A stretch of 64,000 nt of DNA from Oscillibacter ruminantium GH1. GTDB lineage: Bacteria > Bacillota > Clostridia > Oscillospirales > Oscillospiraceae. The position numbers were made by a program, and so were the translations under genes. Location: assembly GCF_000307265.1 (NCBI RefSeq), contig NZ_DF158896.1:259253-323252 (forward strand). The letters run 5' to 3'. This document shows positions 12,982 to 36,890 of the stretch, piece after piece; position 1 is the stretch's first letter; every line of letters starts with the position of its first letter. The notes beneath the pieces were generated by a model that saw nothing but the letters and a program-made list of their open reading frames with translations, ran no database searches and was not told the origin of the DNA.

Positions 12982-13267
12982 AAAAGGCTCTCGCCAACCT
13001 GTTAAACAGGGAGACGAAAGCCAAACTTCCGTGGTACCACTCTCTTTGCCGCGTTCTGCGGCCACTTCTGCACGCTTTCGCGTACTGTCCCGCTATCGGA
13101 GGGCTTCCGTTGCCGCTTAACAGGGAAAAACTCCCCTTAGGCGGGACCGCTCCCAGACCAGACCGGCGGGCCGCGTCCGCTGCCTCGCACCATGCGGCAG
13201 CTCTCTGAAGCGGCGATCCCGACGGCAATTTCCGTTCATCGCGTTATGCTATTCAGTTAAAGGATTA
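12982..13267 (-). promoter_or_regulatory. T-box riboswitch controlling ilvE (probable Leu specifier)
   Basis: The minus-strand leader shows the T-box sequence AGAGTGGTACCACGG (13043-13029) followed by a terminator hairpin (13022-12986) ending in TTTTG. Upstream, stem I shows the conserved distal loop region (AGAGAGCTGC, then ATGGTGCGAGGCAGC). By alignment with the asnB leader in this window, the specifier would be CTG at 13161-13159, followed by the expected purine, i.e. leucine; GTC (valine) directly beside it is the alternative. In this class, uncharged tRNA binding stabilises an anti-terminator so that ilvE is expressed when the amino acid is scarce. Confidence 0.92.
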
Positions 13268-20668: not shown

Positions 20669-21094
20669 TTATTTACCGCAGAGGAACCGCAGCGCTTCCA
20701 CATAGCCGGAAAGGCCGTGGCCTTTGATGGTTTTGACGCAGGCCGCACGAATGTAAGAGATTTTGCGGAAATCCTCTCGGGTGTCCGGGTCGGAGATATG
20801 AACCTCCACCGTGGGAATGCCAACGGCCTTCACCGCGTCCAGCAGGGCTACGCTGGTGTGGGTGTAAGCGCCGGGATTGATCACAATACCGTCCATCATC
20901 CCATAGGCCCGCTGGATGGCGTCCACCAGTCCCCCCTCGTGGTTGGACTGGTAAAACTCCACACCCACGTCAAGGTGACTCGCCTCCTTCTGGATCATGG
21001 AGCACAGATCGTTATAGGTTTCGTGCCCGTAAATCTCCGGCTCCCGGATCCCCAGCATGTTCAGATTAGGTCCGTTGAGAATCAGTATCCGCAC
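20669..21094 (-). CDS. aroQ: 3-dehydroquinate dehydratase, type II
   Basis: 141 residues. It removes water from 3-dehydroquinate to give 3-dehydroshikimate. Type II signatures are present: LNGPNLNMLGIREPEIYG at the start, NPGAYTHTS around residue 73, and VEVHISD near 98. The start is the GTG at 21094, with GGAGGG six bases upstream, inside the end of the aroE-aroK gene (29-base overlap), so it is translationally coupled. An upstream in-frame ATG would add 18 unrelated residues. It is the last gene of the operon. Confidence 0.93.
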   Translation of the reverse strand: MRILILNGPNLNMLGIREPEIYGHETYNDLCSMIQKEASHLDVGVEFYQSNHEGGLVDAIQRAYGMMDGIVINPGAYTHTSVALLDAVKAVGIPTVEVHISDPDTREDFRKISYIRAACVKTIKGHGLSGYVEALRFLCGK

Positions 21095-22319
21095 AAAAAT
21101 CCCTCCAAATCCGCTCGGCGGCGTCTTGAGGCGCGCCGTTGTTGTCAATCAATGCGTCCCGGAACCGCCGGTACAGCGGGGCGCGCTCCGCCGCCATAGT
21201 GGCGAGGTCTGCCCCTTGAGACAGGGGACGACCGTCGGTGGGGAGCTTTTCAAGGCAGCGATCCAGCTGGTAAATTCGGCCGTTCTGGTGAAGGAATCCG
21301 TAATTCTGAGGGGACTTTACAATCCCACCGCCGCAGATCAGAATTTTCTTGCTCTCCCTTCCGAATCGCTCTGCCGCCTGCTGCTCCAGAGCCCGAAAAG
21401 CGGGTTCGCCGTCCTGTGCAAAAATATCGGGAATGGACTTTCCGGCGGTCTTCACGATTTCCGCGTCCAAGTCCACCGCCCCCCGCCCGGTCAAGGCGGC
21501 TAATTCCGCACCCACGGTGGATTTTCCGCAGCCGGGCATCCCGATTAAAACAATGTTCTCCATCTCTCGGCGCAAAAGAGCCAAAATGCGCTCGTTTTCG
21601 GCAGGATTTATTTTCCGGTCGAAGAAATACTCCTCCGCCGCCGTGGCCTGAAAGACCAGCATGGGCAGCCCGTCGGAGCAGGGAAGGCCCAGCGCCTCCG
21701 CCTGAAGCAGCAGCGCCGTCCTCCGGGGGTTGTACACCACGTCCAGCACGCCCTGACAGGCGGGAAACCTTGTCAAATCGGCGGCAGATTCTCCGGTGTG
21801 AGGGTACATGCCCACCGGCGTGGTGTTTACCACGATCTCTGCGTCGCCATGGCGGCTGAGATTGTCATAATTATCCGCGCCGTGGCGGGAGACGACCACG
21901 ATTTCCCGCGCGCCGCAGGCCCGAGCTGCCGCCTGCGCCGTAAGAGAGGTTCCGCCGCTGCCAAGGATCATCACTTTACGGTCCTTCATCTCCACGCCCG
22001 CCCGGCGAGCCATGTACAAAAAGCCGGAGATATCCGTGTTCCAAGCGTAGAGTTTTCCATCCGGACGGCGCACCAGCGTATTCACACTGCCGATGGCCTG
22101 TGCGGCAGGGTCGATCACGTCACAGTAAGCCATCACGTCCCGCTTGTAAGGAATGGTGACGTTCAGTCCGCCGATATCGGGGCGTGCCAAAAAGGCGGGA
22201 AGCTCCTCCGGCTCCAACTCGATCAATCGATAGCCCTGATTGCCCACCGCCGCGTGGATGGAAACGGACCAGCTGTGGCCCAGCGTTCGGCCCAGCAGGC
22301 CGTAAATCTTCTCCGGCAT
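21066..22319 (-). CDS. aroE-aroK: Bifunctional shikimate dehydrogenase / shikimate kinase fusion
   Basis: 417 residues with two enzymes in one chain. Residues 1 to about 253 are shikimate dehydrogenase: the substrate loop LGHSWSVSIHA, NVTIPYK with its catalytic Lys, GSVNT, and a Rossmann turn LGSGGTS. Residues from about 254 are shikimate kinase: P-loop GMPGCGKSTVG, the DLDAEI acidic pair, a glycine-rich GGGIV, GRPLS and the lid/Arg region ERAPLYRR. Together they convert 3-dehydroshikimate to shikimate 3-phosphate with NADPH and ATP. No stop or frameshift separates the halves. It lies four bases after pheA. Confidence 0.93.
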   Translation of the reverse strand: MPEKIYGLLGRTLGHSWSVSIHAAVGNQGYRLIELEPEELPAFLARPDIGGLNVTIPYKRDVMAYCDVIDPAAQAIGSVNTLVRRPDGKLYAWNTDISGFLYMARRAGVEMKDRKVMILGSGGTSLTAQAAARACGAREIVVVSRHGADNYDNLSRHGDAEIVVNTTPVGMYPHTGESAADLTRFPACQGVLDVVYNPRRTALLLQAEALGLPCSDGLPMLVFQATAAEEYFFDRKINPAENERILALLRREMENIVLIGMPGCGKSTVGAELAALTGRGAVDLDAEIVKTAGKSIPDIFAQDGEPAFRALEQQAAERFGRESKKILICGGGIVKSPQNYGFLHQNGRIYQLDRCLEKLPTDGRPLSQGADLATMAAERAPLYRRFRDALIDNNGAPQDAAERIWRDFCADTDSQRT

Positions 22320-22323
22320 CGGC

Positions 22324-23460
22324 TCACACTTCCGCGTAGTTGCCCAGGAAGTGGAAGCTCTGGCAGGAGCGCTCCATCTCCTCCAGCATGGGCAGAACGC
22401 CCGGATCCTTCAAATCGGCCTCCAGCTCAATGAAGAAGATGAACTCAAAATTCCGGCCCGTGACGGGGCAGCTTTCCAGTTTCGTCATGTTGATGCCCAA
22501 AGCCGCGGGCTTGGAGAGAATGTCATACAGTGCGCCGGGCTTGTTGTCGCAGGCGAAGATCAGACTGATCCGGCTGGCACCCGCGTAGATGGCGGGGTCC
22601 TTGGTGACGCAGATGAAGCGGGTGTAATTGTTGTCGCTGTCCTGCACATCCTCTTTCAAAACGCTGAGGCCGTACAGCTCCGCGCAGGCATGAGAGGACA
22701 AAGCTGCCACATGGGGGTCTTTGCACTGGGACACCATCTGGGAGGCGGAGGCGGTGTTGTCGCAGGGAATCACTCGTACGCCGGAAAGACTCTCCAGAAA
22801 ATGCCCGCACTGGCCGATGGCCTGCGGGTGGGAGTAAATTTCCGTCAGATCCTCCAGTTTTGCGCCGGGAAGGCCCAGCAGCTCGTGGCGGATGCAAAGG
22901 CGGGTGCTGCGGACAATGGAGAGGTGCTTGGTTTGCAGCAGGTCATATACTGCGCGAACCGAGCCGTTGGAGCTGTTTTCAATAGGAAGAACACCGAACT
23001 TGCACAACCCGGACTGCACGGCGGAAACCACCGCCTCAAAACTCTTCACATAGACGATGTTGCCCCGAGGCAGAAGGCGGTCGCAGGCGGCCTGAGAGTT
23101 GGCGCCCTCCATGCCCTGACAGGCCACAAGACCCGTCTGGGGGAAGACCTCGCCCCCTGCTTCCAAAGAGGCCCGCACCCGCGCCGCCACCTGCGTGGGC
23201 GCGCCGGTGAGTTCCGCCTGCCGCGCACGGGAAAGGTGGAACAGTGTGGTGAAGAGGTGATAGGCGTAGCGCTCCTTGTCTCCGGCCTCTGCGGTTACCT
23301 TGGCCAGAATCTCCCGTTCCCGCGTCCGGTTGGAGATGGGCAGTCCTTGTTCAGCCTTGGCGGCGGCAACGTCCTCAGAGAGAGCCATGCGCTCCAAAAA
23401 CAGCTTCAGCAGGGCCTCGTCCGCCGTGTCGATTTTTTCCCGAATCTCAGAAAGTTCCAT
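22324..23460 (-). CDS. pheA: Bifunctional chorismate mutase / prephenate dehydratase (P-protein)
   Basis: 378 residues. Residues 1-85 are an AroQ-type chorismate mutase (EIREKIDTADEALLKLF); residues about 110-285 are prephenate dehydratase with the NYTRF motif; residues about 296-378 are an ACT domain that in the family binds Phe for feedback inhibition. The ACT motif PGALYDIL is kept, but the conserved ESRP reads ESCP (residues 329-332, Cys331 in place of Arg), which could alter Phe sensitivity. The product phenylpyruvate is the Phe precursor. The gene has GGAGG before its ATG and lies 14 bases after aroC. Confidence 0.95.
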   Translation of the reverse strand: MELSEIREKIDTADEALLKLFLERMALSEDVAAAKAEQGLPISNRTREREILAKVTAEAGDKERYAYHLFTTLFHLSRARQAELTGAPTQVAARVRASLEAGGEVFPQTGLVACQGMEGANSQAACDRLLPRGNIVYVKSFEAVVSAVQSGLCKFGVLPIENSSNGSVRAVYDLLQTKHLSIVRSTRLCIRHELLGLPGAKLEDLTEIYSHPQAIGQCGHFLESLSGVRVIPCDNTASASQMVSQCKDPHVAALSSHACAELYGLSVLKEDVQDSDNNYTRFICVTKDPAIYAGASRISLIFACDNKPGALYDILSKPAALGINMTKLESCPVTGRNFEFIFFIELEADLKDPGVLPMLEEMERSCQSFHFLGNYAEV

Positions 23461-23474
23461 ATGTGGGCCTCCTT

Positions 23475-24554
23475 TTAATTTTCATCCAGTAAAATGTCCA
23501 GCAGGACTGTGGCGACCACGGCCTCTACCACCGGAACGGCCCGGTGGGCAATGCAGGGGTCGTGTCGCCCGGAGATGACCAGCTCCGTCTCCTCCATGCG
23601 GCTCAGACGCACGGTCTGTTGGGGCTTTGCGATGGAGGGCGTAGGCTTGAACGCCGCCCGCAGTGTCAAAGGCATCCCGTTGGTGATGCCCCCCAAAATT
23701 CCGCCGCAGCGGTTCCGGGTGGTTTCCACTCGTCCGTTTCGGATGCAGAAGGGGTCGTTGTTAACGCTGCCCCGCAGGGCTGCGGCCTCGAACCCCGCGC
23801 CGAATTCCAGCCCCTTCATGGCGGGGATGCCGAACAGCACCGCAGCCAGACGATTTTCCATTCCGCCGAACATCGGCTCGCCAAGGCCCGCGGGCAGGCC
23901 GACTGCCGCGCACTCTACCACGCCGCCAACGCTGTCTCCCTCTTGAGACGCGGCCATGATCACGCCTTTCATCCGTTCACCGCACACGTCGTCCAGCACG
24001 GGAAAGGACTTTGCGGAAACCTCTTCAAAAAGAGCCGATGTGGGCCGGGAGGGAAAGGGAATGTCGCCCTCCTCGCCCACGGAGAGCAGGTGCGCACCCA
24101 CGTAGACGCCCCGCCGAGCCAGAATCTGCTTGGCGATCCCGCCGATCACGCACAGCGGCGCGGTGAGACGGCCGGAAAAATGCCCGCCGCCCCGCATGTC
24201 CGCCTTGCCGCCCCATTTAACCCATGCGGTGTAGTCCGCGTGGCCGGGACGGGGGGTATCCGACAGCGCGGCATAGTCCCCGGAGTGCTGATCCCGGTTT
24301 TCGATGACTGCACACAGCGGAGAGCCGCAGGTTACGTTGTCCTGAAGTCCCGAAAGAAAGGCGGGGATATCCGTCTCCTGCCGCGCGGTGGAAAGCGCGT
24401 TCTTTCCGGGGCGGCGGCGCGCCATGAAATGAGCCAGTTCATCCATGTTGACGGACTCGCCGGCGGGCAGACCGTCTGCCACCACGCCGATGGCCGCGCC
24501 GTGGGATTGCCCGAAAATGCTGACGCGCAGGTTGTTTCCAAATTCAGACGCCAT
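23475..24554 (-). CDS. aroC: Chorismate synthase
   Basis: 359 residues. It makes chorismate from 5-enolpyruvylshikimate 3-phosphate using reduced FMN. Signatures: FGQSHGAAIGVVADGLPAG near the N terminus, RRRPGKN, GGGHFSGRLTAPL in the middle and RCGGILGGITNG near residue 282. The ATG at 24554 is chosen because AGGAGGTGA lies eight bases upstream; a GTG nine bases earlier is part of that ribosome site. It overlaps the aroA end by 11 bases, implying coupled translation. Confidence 0.95.
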   Translation of the reverse strand: MASEFGNNLRVSIFGQSHGAAIGVVADGLPAGESVNMDELAHFMARRRPGKNALSTARQETDIPAFLSGLQDNVTCGSPLCAVIENRDQHSGDYAALSDTPRPGHADYTAWVKWGGKADMRGGGHFSGRLTAPLCVIGGIAKQILARRGVYVGAHLLSVGEEGDIPFPSRPTSALFEEVSAKSFPVLDDVCGERMKGVIMAASQEGDSVGGVVECAAVGLPAGLGEPMFGGMENRLAAVLFGIPAMKGLEFGAGFEAAALRGSVNNDPFCIRNGRVETTRNRCGGILGGITNGMPLTLRAAFKPTPSIAKPQQTVRLSRMEETELVISGRHDPCIAHRAVPVVEAVVATVLLDILLDEN

Positions 24555-25773
24555 GTACGTCACCTCCTAAAGCGAGATAGTCTTCAAAAAACGAGGGATA
24601 GGACTTGTTGATCGCCTCGGAACCCAAAATGGTGACGGGGCCGGCGCAGCGGGTGGCGGCAATCGCCGCGGCCATAACGATGCGGTGGTCGTTGGCTCCG
24701 TCCACCGTGCCACCGGAAAGATGAGGGACGCCGCGAATCATAAGACTGTCCGCTCCCTCTTCCGCATCGCCGCCCAAGGCGGTCAGCATGGCGGCGGTGG
24801 TTTTCAGCCGGTCACTCTCCTTCAGCCGGAGCCGGGCAGCGTTGGTCAAATGGGTAGTACCCTGACGCACGGCCGCCATCACCGCCAGCGGCGGGACAAG
24901 GTCGGGGCAGCCGGATACGTCGATGGAGACGTCGCCGGGGCGGGACAGGGTGCGGGCGTATTCCGACACAGCCATGTCGCCTTGCGCGGAGCAGGCGTTC
25001 AGCCCGTTAATTTGGAGATCGCCGCCCAAAACGTTTGCAGCGTACCAAAAAGCGGCTTGAGACCAGTCAGCCTCCACCGTGGCGTTAAAGGGCCGATAGG
25101 CGCCGGAACGCACCTGATAGAGGCCCTGTTCAGGGCGGCCCACCGCCGTGATTCCGGCGGCGCGAAGCGCCTCCAACGTCATGGAAATATAGCCGGAGGA
25201 CTCCAGCGTTGTGGTGCTTACCAGCGTACTGTTCCCCGCAAGCAAAGGCAGAGCAAACAAAAGACCCGTGAAAAACTGGCTGGAAACATTGCCGGGAAGC
25301 CGATATTCTCCGCTGGGCAAAGCACCCTGAACGGTCAGCACGCCCTCGTTCCATTCGTGAACAATGCCCCGTTCATCAAACAGGTCGAAATAGGGCTGCT
25401 GAGGCCGCTCCATCAATCGGCCCTGTCCGGTGAAGACCCCGCCTCCCGCTGTCGCAAGGGCAATGGGAATCAAAAACCGCAGCGTGGAACCGGATTCCCC
25501 GCAGTCAAAGCGGGGCAGCGGACTATTTCGCTTCGGCAGCTTTCCGCCGATTCCCCGGATGCGGATCACGCCTGCCTCTGGCTGCTCCCATGTGCTGCCC
25601 AGAGCCGCCACGCACCGGAGCGTGGCGGCAATGTCTTGAGAAAGGGCCACATTGCACACGGTACTCACGCCGTTTGCCAGCGCGGCGGCGATCAGCAGGC
25701 GGTGGGCCATGGATTTGCTGCTTGGCGGCGTTACCGTGCCGCCAAGGGGCTTGGGGTTGATGCGGATGTCCAT
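24544..25773 (-). CDS. aroA: 3-phosphoshikimate 1-carboxyvinyltransferase (EPSP synthase)
   Basis: 409 residues from the ATG at 25773, which has GGGAGG seven bases upstream; the frame is open much further back but that stretch is the shadow of aroB. It joins shikimate 3-phosphate and phosphoenolpyruvate. The N-terminal PPSSKSMAHR (substrate Lys-Ser-Arg), DCGESGSTLRFL and LKESDRL are characteristic. The motif DCGESGST replaces the E. coli-type LGNAGTA, suggesting a class II-like or divergent Firmicute enzyme; this is an inference. The start codon shares one base with the aroB stop (TGATG). Confidence 0.94.
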   Translation of the reverse strand: MDIRINPKPLGGTVTPPSSKSMAHRLLIAAALANGVSTVCNVALSQDIAATLRCVAALGSTWEQPEAGVIRIRGIGGKLPKRNSPLPRFDCGESGSTLRFLIPIALATAGGGVFTGQGRLMERPQQPYFDLFDERGIVHEWNEGVLTVQGALPSGEYRLPGNVSSQFFTGLLFALPLLAGNSTLVSTTTLESSGYISMTLEALRAAGITAVGRPEQGLYQVRSGAYRPFNATVEADWSQAAFWYAANVLGGDLQINGLNACSAQGDMAVSEYARTLSRPGDVSIDVSGCPDLVPPLAVMAAVRQGTTHLTNAARLRLKESDRLKTTAAMLTALGGDAEEGADSLMIRGVPHLSGGTVDGANDHRIVMAAAIAATRCAGPVTILGSEAINKSYPSFFEDYLALGGDVHGV

Positions 25774-26846
25774 CAGCGGTCCTCCCACCCAGCGGCGAAG
25801 ATGGACTCCAGCTCCCCGACGGGGACGGTCTTCATCTCGCACGTTCCGATTTTTCGGGGAATCACCAGAGATATTTCGCCGCCCCGGCGCTTTTTGTCCG
25901 CCAGCGCCGCCTGCGCCAGCTGCGCGGGGGAATACTCCGTTCCGGTGGGAAGTCCGTTGCGCCTGAGCACGCCGCAAATCCGCGCCGCACAGGGCGCTTC
26001 TGTCCAACCAAGCGCTTCTGCCGCCCGGGCAATGATTGCAAGACCCGCCGCCACGGCGTGCCCGTGGTGGATGGCGTAAGCACTGCACTTTTCGATGGCG
26101 TGACCGGCGGTATGCCCCAGATTCAGCGTCCGTCGAAGACCGTTGTCCAGCTCGTCCTGCTCCACCACGGAGCCTTTGAAGGCAATGCACCGCGCCACAA
26201 TCTCTCCGAGGTCGGCGGTGAAATCGTCCGTGTCAAACAGGGAAAACAGTCCCTCGTCCGAAAGAACGCCGGTCTTGATGGCCTCAGCGGCTCCGTCCGC
26301 CCGCTCCAGCGGGGGAAGGGTTTTAAGACAGTCCGTGTCGCAGACAACGGCGGAGGGCTGCAAAAAAAGTCCCGCCAGGTTTTTCCCATGCTGAAGGTCC
26401 ACGGCGGTTTTGCCGCCCACGGAGGAATCCACCGCGGAGAGCAGCGTGGTGGGAAGCTGAACGTAGTTCACGCCCCGCAGATAGCAGCCCGCAGCAAAGC
26501 CCGCCATATCGCCGCACACACCGCCGCCCAGAGCCGCCACGCAGTCGCTGCGGGTGAGCTGCTCCTCCGCCAGAAACTCCAATACCTCAGAGAGGGTGGA
26601 GAGGTTTTTGTGCGCCTCCCCGGCGGAAAAAACGTGGGTACAGACGGAAAACCCCGCCGCCTGAAGACTCTGCGTCACTTGGGGCAGATAGAGCTTTGCA
26701 ACGTTGCTGTCCGTCACCACGGCCACGCGGCAGGGGGGCAGTGCGGAGGCAATCAGCTCTCCGCATCGGCCCAGAAGCCCCGGGCCGATGGAGACGGTGT
26801 AGTCCGGGTGTGTTTTGATCGGTATGGTTCGGATGGTGTTTGCCAT
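25773..26846 (-). CDS. aroB: 3-dehydroquinate synthase
   Basis: 357 residues from the ATG at 26846 (GGGAGG six bases upstream). It cyclises DAHP to 3-dehydroquinate with NAD+ and a divalent metal. The NAD-binding GGGVCGDMAGF and the following PTTLLSAVDSSVGGKTAVD, plus the metal-ligand segments NLGHTAGHAIE and HGHAVAAG, are intact. The frame is open upstream through the 122-bp repeats, but this extension has no ribosome site and encodes repeat-derived residues. A 314-base gap containing that repeat separates it from tyrA. Confidence 0.95.
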   Translation of the reverse strand: MANTIRTIPIKTHPDYTVSIGPGLLGRCGELIASALPPCRVAVVTDSNVAKLYLPQVTQSLQAAGFSVCTHVFSAGEAHKNLSTLSEVLEFLAEEQLTRSDCVAALGGGVCGDMAGFAAGCYLRGVNYVQLPTTLLSAVDSSVGGKTAVDLQHGKNLAGLFLQPSAVVCDTDCLKTLPPLERADGAAEAIKTGVLSDEGLFSLFDTDDFTADLGEIVARCIAFKGSVVEQDELDNGLRRTLNLGHTAGHAIEKCSAYAIHHGHAVAAGLAIIARAAEALGWTEAPCAARICGVLRRNGLPTGTEYSPAQLAQAALADKKRRGGEISLVIPRKIGTCEMKTVPVGELESIFAAGWEDR

Positions 26847-26889
26847 AACGGCCTCCCGTCGTTTAAAATGTTTTGGATTCCTCGCAATG

Positions 26890-27155
26890 GCGAGGGATAT
26901 GGAGCTTGCGGAACGCATCCCCCGTCCTAGCTCCGGGGCAAACCAGCAAAGCGTTTGCACCGGAAGAGAGAGACGCCGCGAAAAGAGGGAGCTATGGCCC
27001 ATCGGGCCAAAGCGAGGGATATGGAGCTTGCGGAACGCATCCCCCGTCCTAGCTCCGGGGCAAACCAGCAAAGCGTTTGCACCGGAAGAGAGAGACGCCG
27101 CGAAAAGAGGGAGCTATGGCCCATCGGGCCAAAGCGAGGGATATGGAGCTTGCGG
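26890..27155. repeat. 122-bp tandem repeat between tyrA and aroB
   Basis: Two complete and apparently identical units (26890-27011 and 27012-27133) and the first 22 bases of a third (27134-27155). The unit begins GCGAGGGATATGGAGCTTGC, contains the self-complementary pairs AGCTCC...GGAGCT and GCAAAC...GTTTGC, and ends in the palindrome GGCCCATCGGGCC. 122 is not a multiple of three, so it is not selected as protein coding. It fills most of the only long gap inside the aro operon (26847-27160). Confidence 0.93.
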
Positions 27156-27160
27156 CTCTC

Positions 27161-27997
27161 TCAATTGCCGCCTGCGGTCGCCTTCCGATCCCGGCCCTCT
27201 TTCAGGAGACTGCGCAGCGTTTCCGCGTCCCGGCTCTGCAAAGCGCCCAGATATTGATTCAGGTGTTCAATGAGAATGTCCAATTCCTCCGTGAGGTAAT
27301 CCGCGTTGTCCAAAAACAATTCGGTCCACATGGCCTCGTCCAGCCGAGCCACCCGGGTCATGTCCCGGAAACTCCCGGCAGAAAATCCCCGGCGCTTCTG
27401 CGCCTCCGGCGACTTCACGTATGCGCTGGAAGAGATGTGAGCCAGCTGAGAGGTGTAGGCAATGATGCGGTCGTGCTCGTCAGGGGTGGAGAAGGTGAGA
27501 TTGGCAAAGCCAATATCCAAAAAGAAGGCTTTCAACGTTTCCAGCAGCTGCATGTCCGTCCTCTTATCGGGTGTTAGGATCATGGAGGCCCCGTCATAAA
27601 GACCGGCGCTGGAATTGACAAAACCACCCCGTTCCAAGCCCGCCATGGGATGCCCGCCGATATAGGCGAAGCCGCGTTTTTCCGCAATGGGTGCGATTTT
27701 TTCGACGACTGCCCGCTTCACCCCGCAGAGATCCACCAAAATGGCGGACTTTGCAATTTTCTCTGCGTGCGTCTCCACCCACGCAATCGCCGCGCCGGGA
27801 CGGACGGCGGCCAGAATCAGATCACACTGAGGCAGGTTCTCGTCGGTCAGCGTTCCGTCAATGGCGCCGCAGATGCGGGCCAGCGTCATGGTTTCGGCGT
27901 CTGTGTCAAGGCCCCAAACGGTGTGGGCCGTGCGGGCCTTCACACTTTTTGCCATGGACCCGCCGATCAGGCCCAGACCGATGATGCCAACGTTCAT
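27161..27997 (-). CDS. tyrA: Prephenate dehydrogenase
   Basis: 278 residues from the ATG at 27997, four bases after the aroF stop. It oxidises prephenate to 4-hydroxyphenylpyruvate with NAD(P)+. The Rossmann motif GIIGLGLIGGSMA (3-15), GGHPMAG near residue 134 with its catalytic His, and the C-terminal helical dimer domain are present. No chorismate mutase or ACT domain is fused, so feedback control by Tyr would have to come from elsewhere. The frame ends within 6 bases of the tandem repeat. Confidence 0.94.
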   Translation of the reverse strand: MNVGIIGLGLIGGSMAKSVKARTAHTVWGLDTDAETMTLARICGAIDGTLTDENLPQCDLILAAVRPGAAIAWVETHAEKIAKSAILVDLCGVKRAVVEKIAPIAEKRGFAYIGGHPMAGLERGGFVNSSAGLYDGASMILTPDKRTDMQLLETLKAFFLDIGFANLTFSTPDEHDRIIAYTSQLAHISSSAYVKSPEAQKRRGFSAGSFRDMTRVARLDEAMWTELFLDNADYLTEELDILIEHLNQYLGALQSRDAETLRSLLKEGRDRKATAGGN

Positions 27998-28001
27998 GGC
28001 C

Positions 28002-29015
28002 TCAGCCCTCCAAGGCGGCACAGAAGTTATGCATCTTGAGCAGCTTCTTTGCCAGCGTGTCAAACGCCTCGGGCTTAAGGGACTGTGCGCCGTCGCACAA
28101 AGCGTGGGCCGGGTCGTTGTGAACCTCGATCAAAAGACCGTCCGCTCCGGTGGCTACCGCGCCCACCGCCAAGGGGTCCACCAGCCAGCTTTTGCCGGTG
28201 GCGTGGCTGGGGTCGATGATGATAGGCAGGTGGGTCAGCTTGCGCAAAACGGGAATGCAGGCCAGATCCAGAGTGTTGCGGGTGTAGCTTTCAAAGGTAC
28301 GGATGCCCCGCTCGCAGAGAATCACGTCCTGGTTGCCGCTGGCCATGACGTATTCAGCGCTCATGAGCCACTCTTCATAGGTGGCAGACATGCCCCTCTT
28401 GATCATAATGGGCTTATCCAGCTTGCCGACTTCTTTTAAAAGGTTGAAATTCTGCATGTTCCGTGCGCCGATCTGAATCACGTCCACGTCGTCAAACAGC
28501 GGGATTTGGGAGATATCCATCAGTTCGGTGACGATGGGCAGACCCGTTTCCTGCCGGGCGACCTTGAGAAATTCCAGTCCCTGCGCGCCAAGACCTTGAA
28601 AGGAGTAGGGAGAGGTGCGGGGCTTGAACGCGCCGCCGCGGAGCATGGTGGCCCCGCTGGCCTTCACGGCTTTGGCAATGGAAACGACCTGCTCCTCGCT
28701 TTCCACAGAGCAAGGCCCCGCCATAATCGTGAGCGTGCCGCCGCCGATCTGGGTGTCTCGCACCTTCACCACCGTGTCTTCGGGATGGAATTTGCGGTTG
28801 GCGTTTTTGTAAGGCTCCTGCACCCGCTTCACGTCGTCCACGATGTCCAACGCCGCGATCAGGTCGATGTCCAGCTGAGAGGTGTCGCCCACCAGACCTA
28901 AAATGGTGTGGGACTCGCCGATGCTGGTGTGGATGGTGATGCCTTTTTCCTGAAGCCAATTGATAAGACTCTCCAACTGTTCGCGGTTGGGATTGCTCTT
29001 GAGAATGACGATCAT
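28002..29015 (-). CDS. aroF: 3-deoxy-7-phosphoheptulonate synthase, type I-beta
   Basis: 337 residues. It condenses phosphoenolpyruvate and erythrose 4-phosphate, the first step of the shikimate pathway. Residues 1-68 are the ferredoxin-like N-terminal regulatory domain (DAHP_snth_FXD); the TIM barrel follows with AGPCSVES, KPRTSPYSFQG and IDPSHATG, giving the metal and PEP ligands. The ATG has AGGAGG before it. It is the first structural gene after the attenuator, so pathway entry is the step most directly controlled by the leader. Confidence 0.95.
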   Translation of the reverse strand: MIVILKSNPNREQLESLINWLQEKGITIHTSIGESHTILGLVGDTSQLDIDLIAALDIVDDVKRVQEPYKNANRKFHPEDTVVKVRDTQIGGGTLTIMAGPCSVESEEQVVSIAKAVKASGATMLRGGAFKPRTSPYSFQGLGAQGLEFLKVARQETGLPIVTELMDISQIPLFDDVDVIQIGARNMQNFNLLKEVGKLDKPIMIKRGMSATYEEWLMSAEYVMASGNQDVILCERGIRTFESYTRNTLDLACIPVLRKLTHLPIIIDPSHATGKSWLVDPLAVGAVATGADGLLIEVHNDPAHALCDGAQSLKPEAFDTLAKKLLKMHNFCAALEG

Positions 29016-29039: not shown

Positions 29040-29072
29040 CAAAAAAGACCCGCAGCCGGTTGGCTGCGGGTC
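29040..29072 (-). terminator. Attenuator terminator of the aromatic amino acid operon
   Basis: On the minus strand GACCCGCAGCC (29072-29062), loop AACC... and GGCTGCGGGTC (29057-29047), followed by TTTTTT. It stands between the leader peptide and aroF. Its 5' arm and loop (CAGCCAACC, 29066-29058) can pair instead with GGTTGGGCTG inside the leader peptide codons 25-28 (29132-29123), one bulged G, giving an anti-terminator. Confidence 0.93.
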
Positions 29073-29099
29073 GTCATGTACTGATAGTTCCTGACAATA

Positions 29100-29204
29100 T
29101 CAGTCGCACAAACACTCGTTTTCAGCCCAACCAAAATAAGCCTTACCAAAATAATAGGTAAAGCTAAAGTAACGGTATTCAGCTGCAAAAGTGAAAGTGG
29201 ACAT
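29100..29204 (-). CDS. Aromatic-rich leader peptide of the aro/phe/tyr operon
   Basis: A 34-residue reading frame, too short for normal gene calling: ATG at 29204 with GAGGAGAC five bases upstream, TGA at 29102-29100. It contains six Phe (positions 4, 6, 13, 15, 19, 24), five Tyr (10, 12, 17, 18, 23) and one Trp (26), i.e. 12 aromatic residues in 34, 11 of them clustered between 4 and 24. A small hairpin (CTGATA/TATCAG) covers its stop codon and an intrinsic terminator follows. This is the arrangement of ribosome-stalling attenuation: lack of charged tRNA-Phe/Tyr would stall the ribosome and free the anti-terminator. Confidence 0.9.
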   Translation of the reverse strand: MSTFTFAAEYRYFSFTYYFGKAYFGWAENECLCD

Positions 29205-29241
29205 AAATAGTCTCCTCATTGTGATGCTTTAAATTACTGAG

Positions 29242-29250
29242 ATCATACCA
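29242..29250 (-). promoter_or_regulatory. Extended -10 promoter of the aromatic operon
   Basis: TGGTATGAT on the minus strand (29250-29242) fits an extended -10 element (TG-N-TATAAT type); no good -35 box lies 17 bases upstream. The start site would be about 30 bases before the leader peptide ATG, leaving only a short 5' end. Confidence 0.6.
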
Positions 29251-29324: not shown

Positions 29325-29891
29325 TCAAACTGCTGCCAGAATCGGTTCCGGCAAAACGCCGCTCATCAGCAGGCTTGTGGCCTCAATGATATAGCGCACG
29401 TCCCGGCGCATGTCCGCTCCGGCATCCATATACTGCTGGTGCAAGGCTTGCAGGCAGTCCGCCAAATCCTCACCGGCGGGGTGAGCGGGGCGCAACCCCC
29501 AGACCTTTAGATAAGAGCTGAGATATTCCCGCAGCGCGTCTTCATACCGCCGATGCTCCATCAGGGAATCGGGGTAGTTCTCGTTGTGGGGATAGGTAAA
29601 AGCGTCCGCCAGATAGTGCGTGAGCTTGCCCAGCGTATAATACTGCCAGCAGGTCCAGTTTTTATTCCGGTGCTGGAGCCGCCCGATGCGGCTGGCAATA
29701 TACTGGTCGGAATTTGTATAATTATGTCCGCGAAACGTATAGCTGCGAATAGATCCTTTCAGATAAGAGAGGGGGTTACAGTCCGGTTGAAAAGAGCCGA
29801 ACAGAAAAGCGAGTTCAAATCGTTTTCGCTGAAATCCGTTCTGAGCCTCCAGCAGAGTGGACGCCAAGAGCTTATGACTGCGTTTCTGCAA
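29325..29891 (-). CDS. Zinc-dependent phospholipase C family protein
   Basis: 188 residues matching the bacterial zinc-dependent PLC fold (PF00882-type) by its His/Asp pattern: SHKLLA near the N terminus, GHNYTNS, and GKLTHYLADAFTYPHN near residue 88-103, the metal-ligand helix. No signal peptide is seen, so it is probably cytoplasmic, as in many clostridial homologues of unknown substrate. The start is TTG with AGGAGGT six bases upstream. Its promoter (29949-29978) is divergent from that of the CoA-transferase. Phospholipase activity is family-based, not shown. Confidence 0.8.
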   Translation of the reverse strand: MQKRSHKLLASTLLEAQNGFQRKRFELAFLFGSFQPDCNPLSYLKGSIRSYTFRGHNYTNSDQYIASRIGRLQHRNKNWTCWQYYTLGKLTHYLADAFTYPHNENYPDSLMEHRRYEDALREYLSSYLKVWGLRPAHPAGEDLADCLQALHQQYMDAGADMRRDVRYIIEATSLLMSGVLPEPILAAV

Positions 29892-36582: not shown

Positions 36583-36890
36583 TATAAAAACGCAGCTATA
36601 TCCTAAAATTTTAGGACGAATAGCTGCTATCCGCGGTGCCACCTAACTTACTGTAAAAACAGTCACCTTCAAGGCTCCAACAAGCCCGTGCGAGATAACG
36701 ATCGCAACTCGTCTTTCTTATTAGCGGGAATCCCGCGTTCAGATCGCAGCTCCGGAGTGTTCTTCGCGCGGACTCTTGTACAGGCTTTCCACTGCCGCCT
36801 GCTCACTTTGACCGATTTTCCGCGGTACTTTTCTCCATCAACGCCATTGCCGATGTTTCAATTGTTTGGTACGACCCTTTTGGATTCGAT
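36583..36890 (-). promoter_or_regulatory. T-box riboswitch controlling asnB (Asn specifier AAC)
   Basis: On the minus strand the T-box motif AGGTGGCACCGCGG (36644-36631) precedes a terminator, GCAGCTAT...ATAGCTGC (36627-36592) with GTTTTTAT. Stem I has the conserved GGAGAAAAGTACC element and distal loop, and the specifier loop reads AAC-A-CTCCGGAG with AAC at 36761-36759, i.e. asparagine, matching the regulated gene. Uncharged tRNA-Asn would relieve termination. Confidence 0.95.

Follow-up and report, generated by a model that had tools for sequence, protein, structure and literature searches.

Introduction

In the enterobacterial attenuators (trp, pheA, his), a leader ORF with control codons, an antiterminator and a terminator are placed before the first gene of the operon. 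T-box leaders (RF00230) bind tRNA directly and need no leader ORF. What T-boxes sense is tRNA charging, which is also what the leader described here would sense.

Leader peptides are already known from Firmicutes, as are uORFs with Phe and Tyr codons at shikimate genes. For the S. aureus ilv operon, the excerpts available describe a leucine-rich attenuator peptide before ilvD, supported by mutational evidence, and cite leader-peptide predictions in Lactococcus and Streptococcus (PMC5794164). The histidine leader peptides found ahead of hisZ and of a hisS paralogue in Bacilli carry His codons, and the excerpts of that paper name no aromatic leader (PMC2965389). Upstream of aroF itself, the uORFC-13-1 motif is described, in the part of the text consulted, from Acholeplasma and environmental sequences (24 representatives; PMC8632094). 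A figure legend names two uORF motifs encoding Phe and Tyr at shikimate genes, one of which could be the leader family reported here (PMC6429828). The excerpts of PMC1262725, PMC2864571 and PMC4833913 hold nothing nearer to the aroF leader, and the last of these cites a 2010 comparative attenuator study (Lopatovskaya and others) that could cover Firmicutes. A literature search confined to open-licence papers, and weak for that reason, returned neither an Oscillibacter aroF leader nor a shared scaffold with exchanged codons.

Here we describe the leader upstream of aroF in Oscillibacter ruminantium GH1, lying within a stretch of 64,000 nucleotides (contig NZ_DF158896.1, positions 259,253 to 323,252) that we refer to as the window and number from its first letter. 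Like the enterobacterial attenuators, the locus has a leader ORF with control codons, an antiterminator formed between the leader and the terminator arm, and a terminator ahead of the first gene; it differs from them in that the window's 1:2 stem finds no support across relatives, whereas a separate hairpin inside the ORF, P1, does. With S. aureus ilv it would have Firmicute leader-peptide attenuation in common, although the codons there are Leu and the gene ilvD (PMC5794164, excerpts), and the Bacilli leaders differ in using His codons. As far as uORFC-13-1 can be likened to it by description, both place a terminator and a uORF containing one or more Phe codons ahead of aroF (PMC8632094, in part). 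The novel part of our analysis is the proposal that one scaffold has been retargeted between genes.

A leader open reading frame rich in Phe and Tyr codons precedes aroF

The features of the locus, all on the minus strand of the window, are as follows.

29242..29250, minus: tentative extended -10, promoter-like, TGGTATGAT, seen by eye about 37 nt ahead of the leader ATG
29216-29212, minus: ribosome-binding site AGGAG of the leader ORF, 7 nt ahead of the ATG
29204-29100, minus: leader ORF, 34 codons plus TGA, with 6 Phe, 5 Tyr and 1 Trp, read from the sequence
29204-29202, minus: start ATG of the leader, encoding the peptide MSTFTFAAEYRYFSFTYYFGKAYFGWAENECLCD, with the stop TGA at 29102-29100
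29165-29157, minus: 5′ strand of the P1 hairpin, AGCTTTACC, codons Ser-Phe-Thr (SFT)
29147-29139, minus: 3′ strand of the P1 hairpin, GGTAAGGCT, codons Gly-Lys-Ala (GKA)
29132-29123, minus: region 2, the antiterminator 5′ strand, GGTTGGGCTG, codons 25-28, covarying with the terminator arm and loop
29066-29058, minus: region 3, the antiterminator 3′ strand, CAGCCAACC, within the terminator 5′ arm and loop
29072-29041, minus: intrinsic terminator, an 11-pair stem (29072-29047) followed by six T (29046-29041)
29029-29024, minus: ribosome site of aroF
28002..29015, minus: aroF, DAHP synthase (PRK08673 / DAHP_synth_Bsub type), the first gene, over curated NCBIfam cut-offs
20669..28003, minus: tyrA, aroB, aroA, aroC, pheA (chorismate mutase-prephenate dehydratase), fused aroE-aroK and aroQ, some starts approximate

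An original prediction, made from the letters of the window, had placed here a 34-codon frame with a ribosome site and 12 aromatic codons, an intrinsic terminator just ahead of aroF, and an alternative pairing of codons 25-28 with the terminator 5′ arm and loop. All three are present where they were predicted on the minus strand, the terminator as an 11-pair stem with six T and the alternative pairing as a duplex of GGTTGGGCTG with CAGCCAACC in which one base is bulged. P1, a 9-pair hairpin inside the leader ORF, had been overlooked; it lies just ahead of region 2, without overlap, both in the window and in the alignment of aroF leaders described below. The locus thus holds a leader ORF with its ribosome site, control codons (11 Phe or Tyr of 34), a terminator and a mutually exclusive antiterminator. 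Both strands of the window together contain 807 ORFs between 20 and 50 codons long, and the leader ORF is alone among them in having at least 30% Phe, Tyr or Trp codons, a count that uses the first start of each ORF, which for the leader is an in-frame ATG at 29219 giving 39 codons. This upstream ATG, also missed in the prediction, is the less likely start: it overlaps the AGGAG, and our script sees no ribosome site for it. The leader RNA (185 nt) folds at -64.4 kcal/mol, whereas 200 dinucleotide shuffles average -41.1 (sd 3.5), which puts the leader 6.6 sd below them, with 0/200 shuffles as low.

Evidence for a promoter is mixed. The tentative TGGTATGAT has no good -35, a consensus scan of the leader strand of the window found no promoter, and the best score upstream of the window's leader, 8, is not above shuffles. 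Among relatives (72 of 73 representatives scored), promoter scores upstream of the leader are raised, with a mean of 10.2 against 8.1 for shuffles and a score of at least 10 in 44 of the 72. Further upstream, a 188-aa protein (29328-29891, minus) has no NCBIfam match at E≤0.001.

NCBIfam matches support this gene order in the operon, with aroB, aroA, aroC and aroQ over cut-offs and tyrA, pheA and aroE-aroK scoring below the cut-offs of the models shown. As the operon carries both tyrA and pheA, the control codons fit its products. In the tyrA-aroB gap inside the operon there is a perfect 122-bp unit in 2.2 tandem copies (window 26890-27155).

T-boxes occur elsewhere in this genome, in 18 candidates of which 11 are over cut-off. 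Among those over cut-off are the ones before tyrS, glyS, leuS and an asparagine synthase gene (36609-36850, minus), and matches below cut-off lie at pheS, trpB and hisS and, more weakly, before the branched-chain aminotransferase gene ilvE (about 13007-13248, minus). Over the aroF leader itself, an Rfam 15 search of the window placed no family at gathering score and no leader family; the window's two matches, a T-box and a tRNA, are both away from it. T-boxes at the synthetases and the leader peptide at the operon may therefore both report on charging of tRNA-Phe and tRNA-Tyr. When 40 loci were given to Rfam, three from one order (L160, L162, L163) had a T-box upstream of aroF, which argues that leader peptide and T-box can replace each other at this gene there; the leader loci L001, L031 and 12 others returned no family.

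A candidate attenuation mechanism

The aroF leader is very probably a ribosome-mediated transcription attenuator that senses Phe and Tyr, as read from its sequence and from folding models. As RNA polymerase makes the leader RNA, a ribosome would follow, translating the 34-codon frame. With charged tRNA-Phe and tRNA-Tyr in ample supply, the ribosome would pass codons 10-24 and mask region 2 (codons 25-28) before it reaches the stop, so that the terminator arm would find its own partner and transcription would stop before aroF. Under a shortage of Phe or Tyr, it would instead stall among codons 4-19, leaving region 2 free beyond the ribosome to pair with the terminator 5′ arm and loop once these are made; no terminator would form, and aroF-tyrA-aroB-aroA-aroC-pheA-aroEK-aroQ would be transcribed. 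Codons 23, 24 and 26 (Tyr, Phe, Trp) count against this scheme, in that a ribosome stalled at them would sit on region 2 and so promote termination. By pausing or timing, the P1 hairpin probably keeps the polymerase coupled to the ribosome, although this is a guess. That the frame is translated, that ribosomes stall in it and that transcription terminates are inferences from sequence, as are the part played by P1 and the control of all eight genes, the last being suggested by gene order.

Conservation of the leader upstream of aroF

Relatives of the leader were gathered from an AroF search in 99 genomes (match in 80), from a search in named-species genomes of which the best 80 of 583 loci were kept, and from further stretches, giving 166 upstream regions, 152 of them distinct. 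Among the best 80 of 583 loci, the nearest AroF is that of Oscillibacter valericigenes (94%). By our script, 131 of the 152 distinct regions have a frame holding 5 or more aromatic residues and 131 have a terminator. Both occur together in 126, or 125 once L162, a T-box, is removed; because the script selects the most aromatic frame, some of the 125 leaders are weak. The 27 remaining regions include truncated L047 and L093 (terminator missed by the script, seen by eye). A terminator kept by relatives that have lost the frame had been named as the outcome that would speak against attenuation, and it is not the rule: the script gives a terminator without a leader in 5 of 152 regions (L110, L134, L156, L160, L163), two of which are T-boxes. 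The representatives drawn from this set share phylogeny and are not independent. Searches over 40 genomes used strict filters and give lower bounds, and many hosts are metagenome bins, such that the cross-phylum cases L069, L078 and L093 may be binning errors.

At the level of the genus the peptide has the core AEYRYFSFTYFYGKAYFGLAE. Variants of it come from other families, from Anaerovorax odorimutans (L090) and from bins that carry the labels Fretibacterium (L069, L078) and Flexilinea (L093). Phe plus Tyr make up 29% of frame 0 in 74 representatives, against 7% and 16% in the other two frames. Codon by codon, the aroF leaders (73 representatives) hold 16.5% Phe, 12.0% Tyr and 0.6% Trp; in the set of 74, Trp amounts to 0.7%, with any Trp in 12. 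The Trp codon of the window sits within the antiterminator segment, at a position that is usually Leu in genus-level relatives, and from these sequences it is probably incidental. Sensing of Trp was rejected because Trp codons are not conserved among the relatives' leaders. Of the three kinds of aromatic codon in the leader, Phe and Tyr are borne out by conservation and Trp is not, which leaves a sensor of Phe plus Tyr.

In five loci (L066, L070, L072, L073, L075) the ORF ends straight after the GKA codons and the segment GGTTTGGCTGAAA is retained past the stop. Region 2 is retained in four of them, L066, L070, L073 and L075, where the ORF stops before reaching it.

Covariation and pairing of the alternative stems

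Compensatory changes were followed in an alignment of 57 aroF leader sequences. P1 is paired in 98.8% of cells, with two-sided changes in 4 of 9 pairs, and the terminator has two-sided changes in all 11 of its pairs. Together, P1 and the terminator are paired in 97.5% of cells, with 119 two-sided cells against 26.8 in shuffled alignments and a covariation of 0.358 against 0.165; 0/500 shuffles reached any of five measures. The antiterminator is paired in 88.8% of cells and has 26 two-sided cells where shuffles give 7.4 (0/500), four of the five measures being reached by 0/500 shuffles and the fifth by 7/500. When its partner is slid by -1, 8 pairs show two-sided changes against 7 in the true register, but only 44.8% of cells are paired. 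The frame, its Phe and Tyr codons and both alternative stems are thus conserved with compensatory changes, the outcome that the prediction had looked for in an alignment of relatives. An outer 1:2 stem (AEYR:GLAE) was rejected as a conserved element, its covariation across relatives being no better than in shuffles.

An alignment-free comparison of each leader's own duplex with swapped partners (74 representatives) gives a mean of -14.1 kcal/mol for own pairs and -10.5 (sd 0.31) for permuted ones (0/10000), with the own region 2 duplex beating the mean swap in 66 of 74, although shared ancestry inflates tests of this kind. The window's own duplex was equalled or beaten by 25 of 73 swapped partners. 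Some distant leaders have different yet complementary pairs, for which the number of swaps as good, of 73, is 0 in L137, 1 in L086, 7 in L102 and 19 in L090.

Folding with a masked ribosome

The window RNA made up to the terminator loop was folded with the ribosome masked, taking the mean antiterminator pair probability as read-out. This probability is 0.07 with no ribosome and 0.83-0.88 with the A site at codons 4-20, after which it falls to 0.76 at codon 21, 0.55 at codon 22 and 0.12 at codon 23, and to 0 from codon 24 to the stop. The contrast between the free RNA and the stalled states favours attenuation, for which folding with and without a ribosome had been proposed as a check. For the complete window RNA at equilibrium the terminator has a probability of 0.998-0.999 even with a stalled ribosome, and at least 0.97 in every state. 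Since the terminator wins on the complete RNA, antitermination must be kinetic, with the choice made during transcription, as is accepted for trp attenuation.

Of 73 representatives, 18 form 5 or more antiterminator pairs with no ribosome present, 65 do so with a ribosome at the best Phe or Tyr stall, and 2 with it at the stop. Stall positions that free the antiterminator make up 77% of 621 Phe or Tyr codons against 51% of 1491 other codons, in a calculation that takes the best-matching stretch as region 2, which favours pairing and puts it in the first half of the ORF in 7 of 73. The description of the locus as a classical attenuator is only partly right, in that the 1:2 stem that would hide region 2 lacks covariation across relatives. 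By folding, region 2 is hidden in the window, where the antiterminator reaches 0.07 without a ribosome, but the antiterminator is formed without one in the 18 representatives just mentioned.

Possibly related leaders at other amino acid genes

We propose, with confidence that is about evenly balanced, that one homologous scaffold (in-ORF P1, region 2 and terminator) has been retargeted in Clostridia and related classes by swapping its control codons, with P1, region 2 and the terminator maintained through compensatory changes, making up a modular family that trades places with T-boxes and whose pheA branch may be leaderless. Its types seem to be Phe/Tyr at aroF, Phe at pheA, Leu at leuA, and Ile/Val/Leu or Val at ilvB. 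The proposal started from a covariance model built from aroF leaders alone (R1), which at E≤0.001 matched 26 of 391 genomes of the class in 28 places. Eighteen of these places adjoin aroF, and three of the other ten precede other amino acid genes: leuA, with the leader MKSQFSAQLNLLNLALLLQG (E 7.2e-9); ilvB, with MSKQYSHNFIVVLINLISLVIIGEANKAYCGCAERA (E 1.2e-4); and a pheA-like gene, with MTRNIFTAFDFFFGFAFFFGKTLKVLTA (E 5.3e-4). Genes were named by NCBIfam, the pheA match having 210 bits, slightly short of the 219 that its cut-off demands. The remaining seven places look like chance. A second copy in the genome of the window (G000 contig 6, L183; 33.7 bits, E 1.9e-4) was read as chance; by eye it lies after a gene end and has a terminator and no aromatic-rich frame. 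The same reading was given to L205, L206, L210, L212, L214, L215 and L315-L317, at which no matching leader plus biosynthetic gene was seen.

Relatives of the three non-aroF cases were then compared. For pheA (26 examined of 30 fetched), a Phe-rich leader is present in 25 of 26 and a terminator in 22 of 26; for ilvB (23 examined of 30), leader and terminator are found in 8 of 23; and for leuA, where 6 of 30 were examined and the rest are remote homologues, in 1 of 6. At E≤0.01, R1 matched 31 of 36 other-gene leader loci and 0 of 21 same-gene loci where no leader was found, with the limit that three of the 36 were those to which R1 had led in the first place and most others are relatives of these. 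A combined covariance model (R2) matched 33 of 391 genomes of the class, including further pheA-like and ilvB cases. On 398 genomes of the phylum it matched 12 genomes in 14 places, 9 at aroF and 3 by chance, the other two being L313 at ilvB, with a Val-rich leader, and L319 at leuA, with a Leu-rich leader. Genome G985 has the last of these together with a Phe/Tyr leader at aroF (L314). In another genome (G876 contig 1, 739454-739752), two tandem attenuators, L318 and L312, each with its own terminator, precede one aroF.

Leader codons differ with the gene. At pheA (21 distinct leaders) they are 32.7% Phe and 0.2% Tyr; at ilvB (8 distinct leaders), 12.8% Ile, 12.5% Val and 8.8% Leu, or 34% for the three together; and at leuA (2 distinct leaders), 32.7% Leu, the starts of L250 and L279 in this set being taken by hand at a later ATG than the script's. 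P1 has been rebuilt along with the codons, by eye, from AGC-TTT-ACC/GGT-AAG-GCT at aroF to AGC-GTT-GTA/TAC-AAC-GCT in the Val type, L313, and the ilvB sequence AATAAGGCTTATTGCGGTTGTGC can be compared with GGTAAGGCTTATTTCGGTTGTGC of the aroF leader L010. Against partners from other gene classes, own duplexes were not better for ilvB (8 loci) or leuA (1), and were better for pheA (22); by eye, some bases in the 3′ arm of the terminator belong to the ilvB antiterminator but were omitted by the script. To judge from the sequences, homology is most convincing for ilvB and leuA and weaker for pheA, for which convergence on one plan is possible.

The Phe-only leaders at pheA (L276-L294 and L296-L301, genus g94 of family f67) have a further peculiarity. 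In all 25, a perfect TATAAT ends 6-10 nt upstream of the leader ATG, and a ribosome-site-like sequence is seen in 1 of 25. Because the TATAAT is so close to the ATG and the ribosome site is nearly absent, these leaders are probably carried on leaderless mRNA, which would be an unusual way to start an attenuator peptide.

Alternative explanations

The conservation of the leader could have another cause. In nascent-peptide arrest, of which TnaC, responding to tryptophan, is an example, the peptide itself would arrest its ribosome when a free aromatic amino acid or a metabolite is present, and the strong conservation of the core AEYRYFSFTYFYGKAYFGLAE in the genus is what such a peptide would show. 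This conservation can largely be accounted for by RNA pairing and by Phe and Tyr codons, however, with SFT and GKA forming P1 and GLAE forming region 2. For 9 of the 73 representatives, the best match to region 2 starts where the ORF ends or past it, region 2 is kept though untranslated in the four loci with an early stop, and at other genes the leader residues switch with the regulated amino acid, which together make arrest by the peptide improbable. Nor is the RNA likely to act by binding a ligand or protein (as a riboswitch, TRAP-like element or other) beside an incidental short frame, an explanation that we consider more improbable still. The leader does fold far below shuffles and P1 is conserved, as they would be in such an RNA; yet no Rfam family matches it, frame and codons are conserved with a codon content that tracks the gene, and in L313 the P1 sequence is, by eye, almost wholly replaced with pairing kept, unlike a binding pocket.

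That the aroF operon is under T-box control has in its favour the abundance of T-boxes in this genome and the three relatives with one at aroF. At the sensitivity of the searches run, the window's aroF has no T-box match, a T-box or other Rfam family at the leader was rejected on that ground, and we regard this explanation as extremely improbable. Just as remote is an ordinary terminator of the upstream gene standing beside a chance or unrelated small protein gene: a lone intergenic terminator would appear identical, but here the terminator arm covaries with a leader segment and the unit stays ahead of aroF in many families.

Significance

As a ribosome-mediated attenuator, the aroF leader would add a switch sensing Phe and Tyr at the entry to the shikimate pathway in Oscillibacter-like bacteria, in a genome otherwise rich in T-boxes, and it suggests a way for an operon that supplies two end products to answer to each of them. 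If the retargeting of the scaffold is real, it would provide a natural set of leaders that differ chiefly in their control codons, and with it a direct test of what sets the amino acid specificity of an attenuator, as well as a test of how leader peptides and T-boxes replace one another at the same gene.
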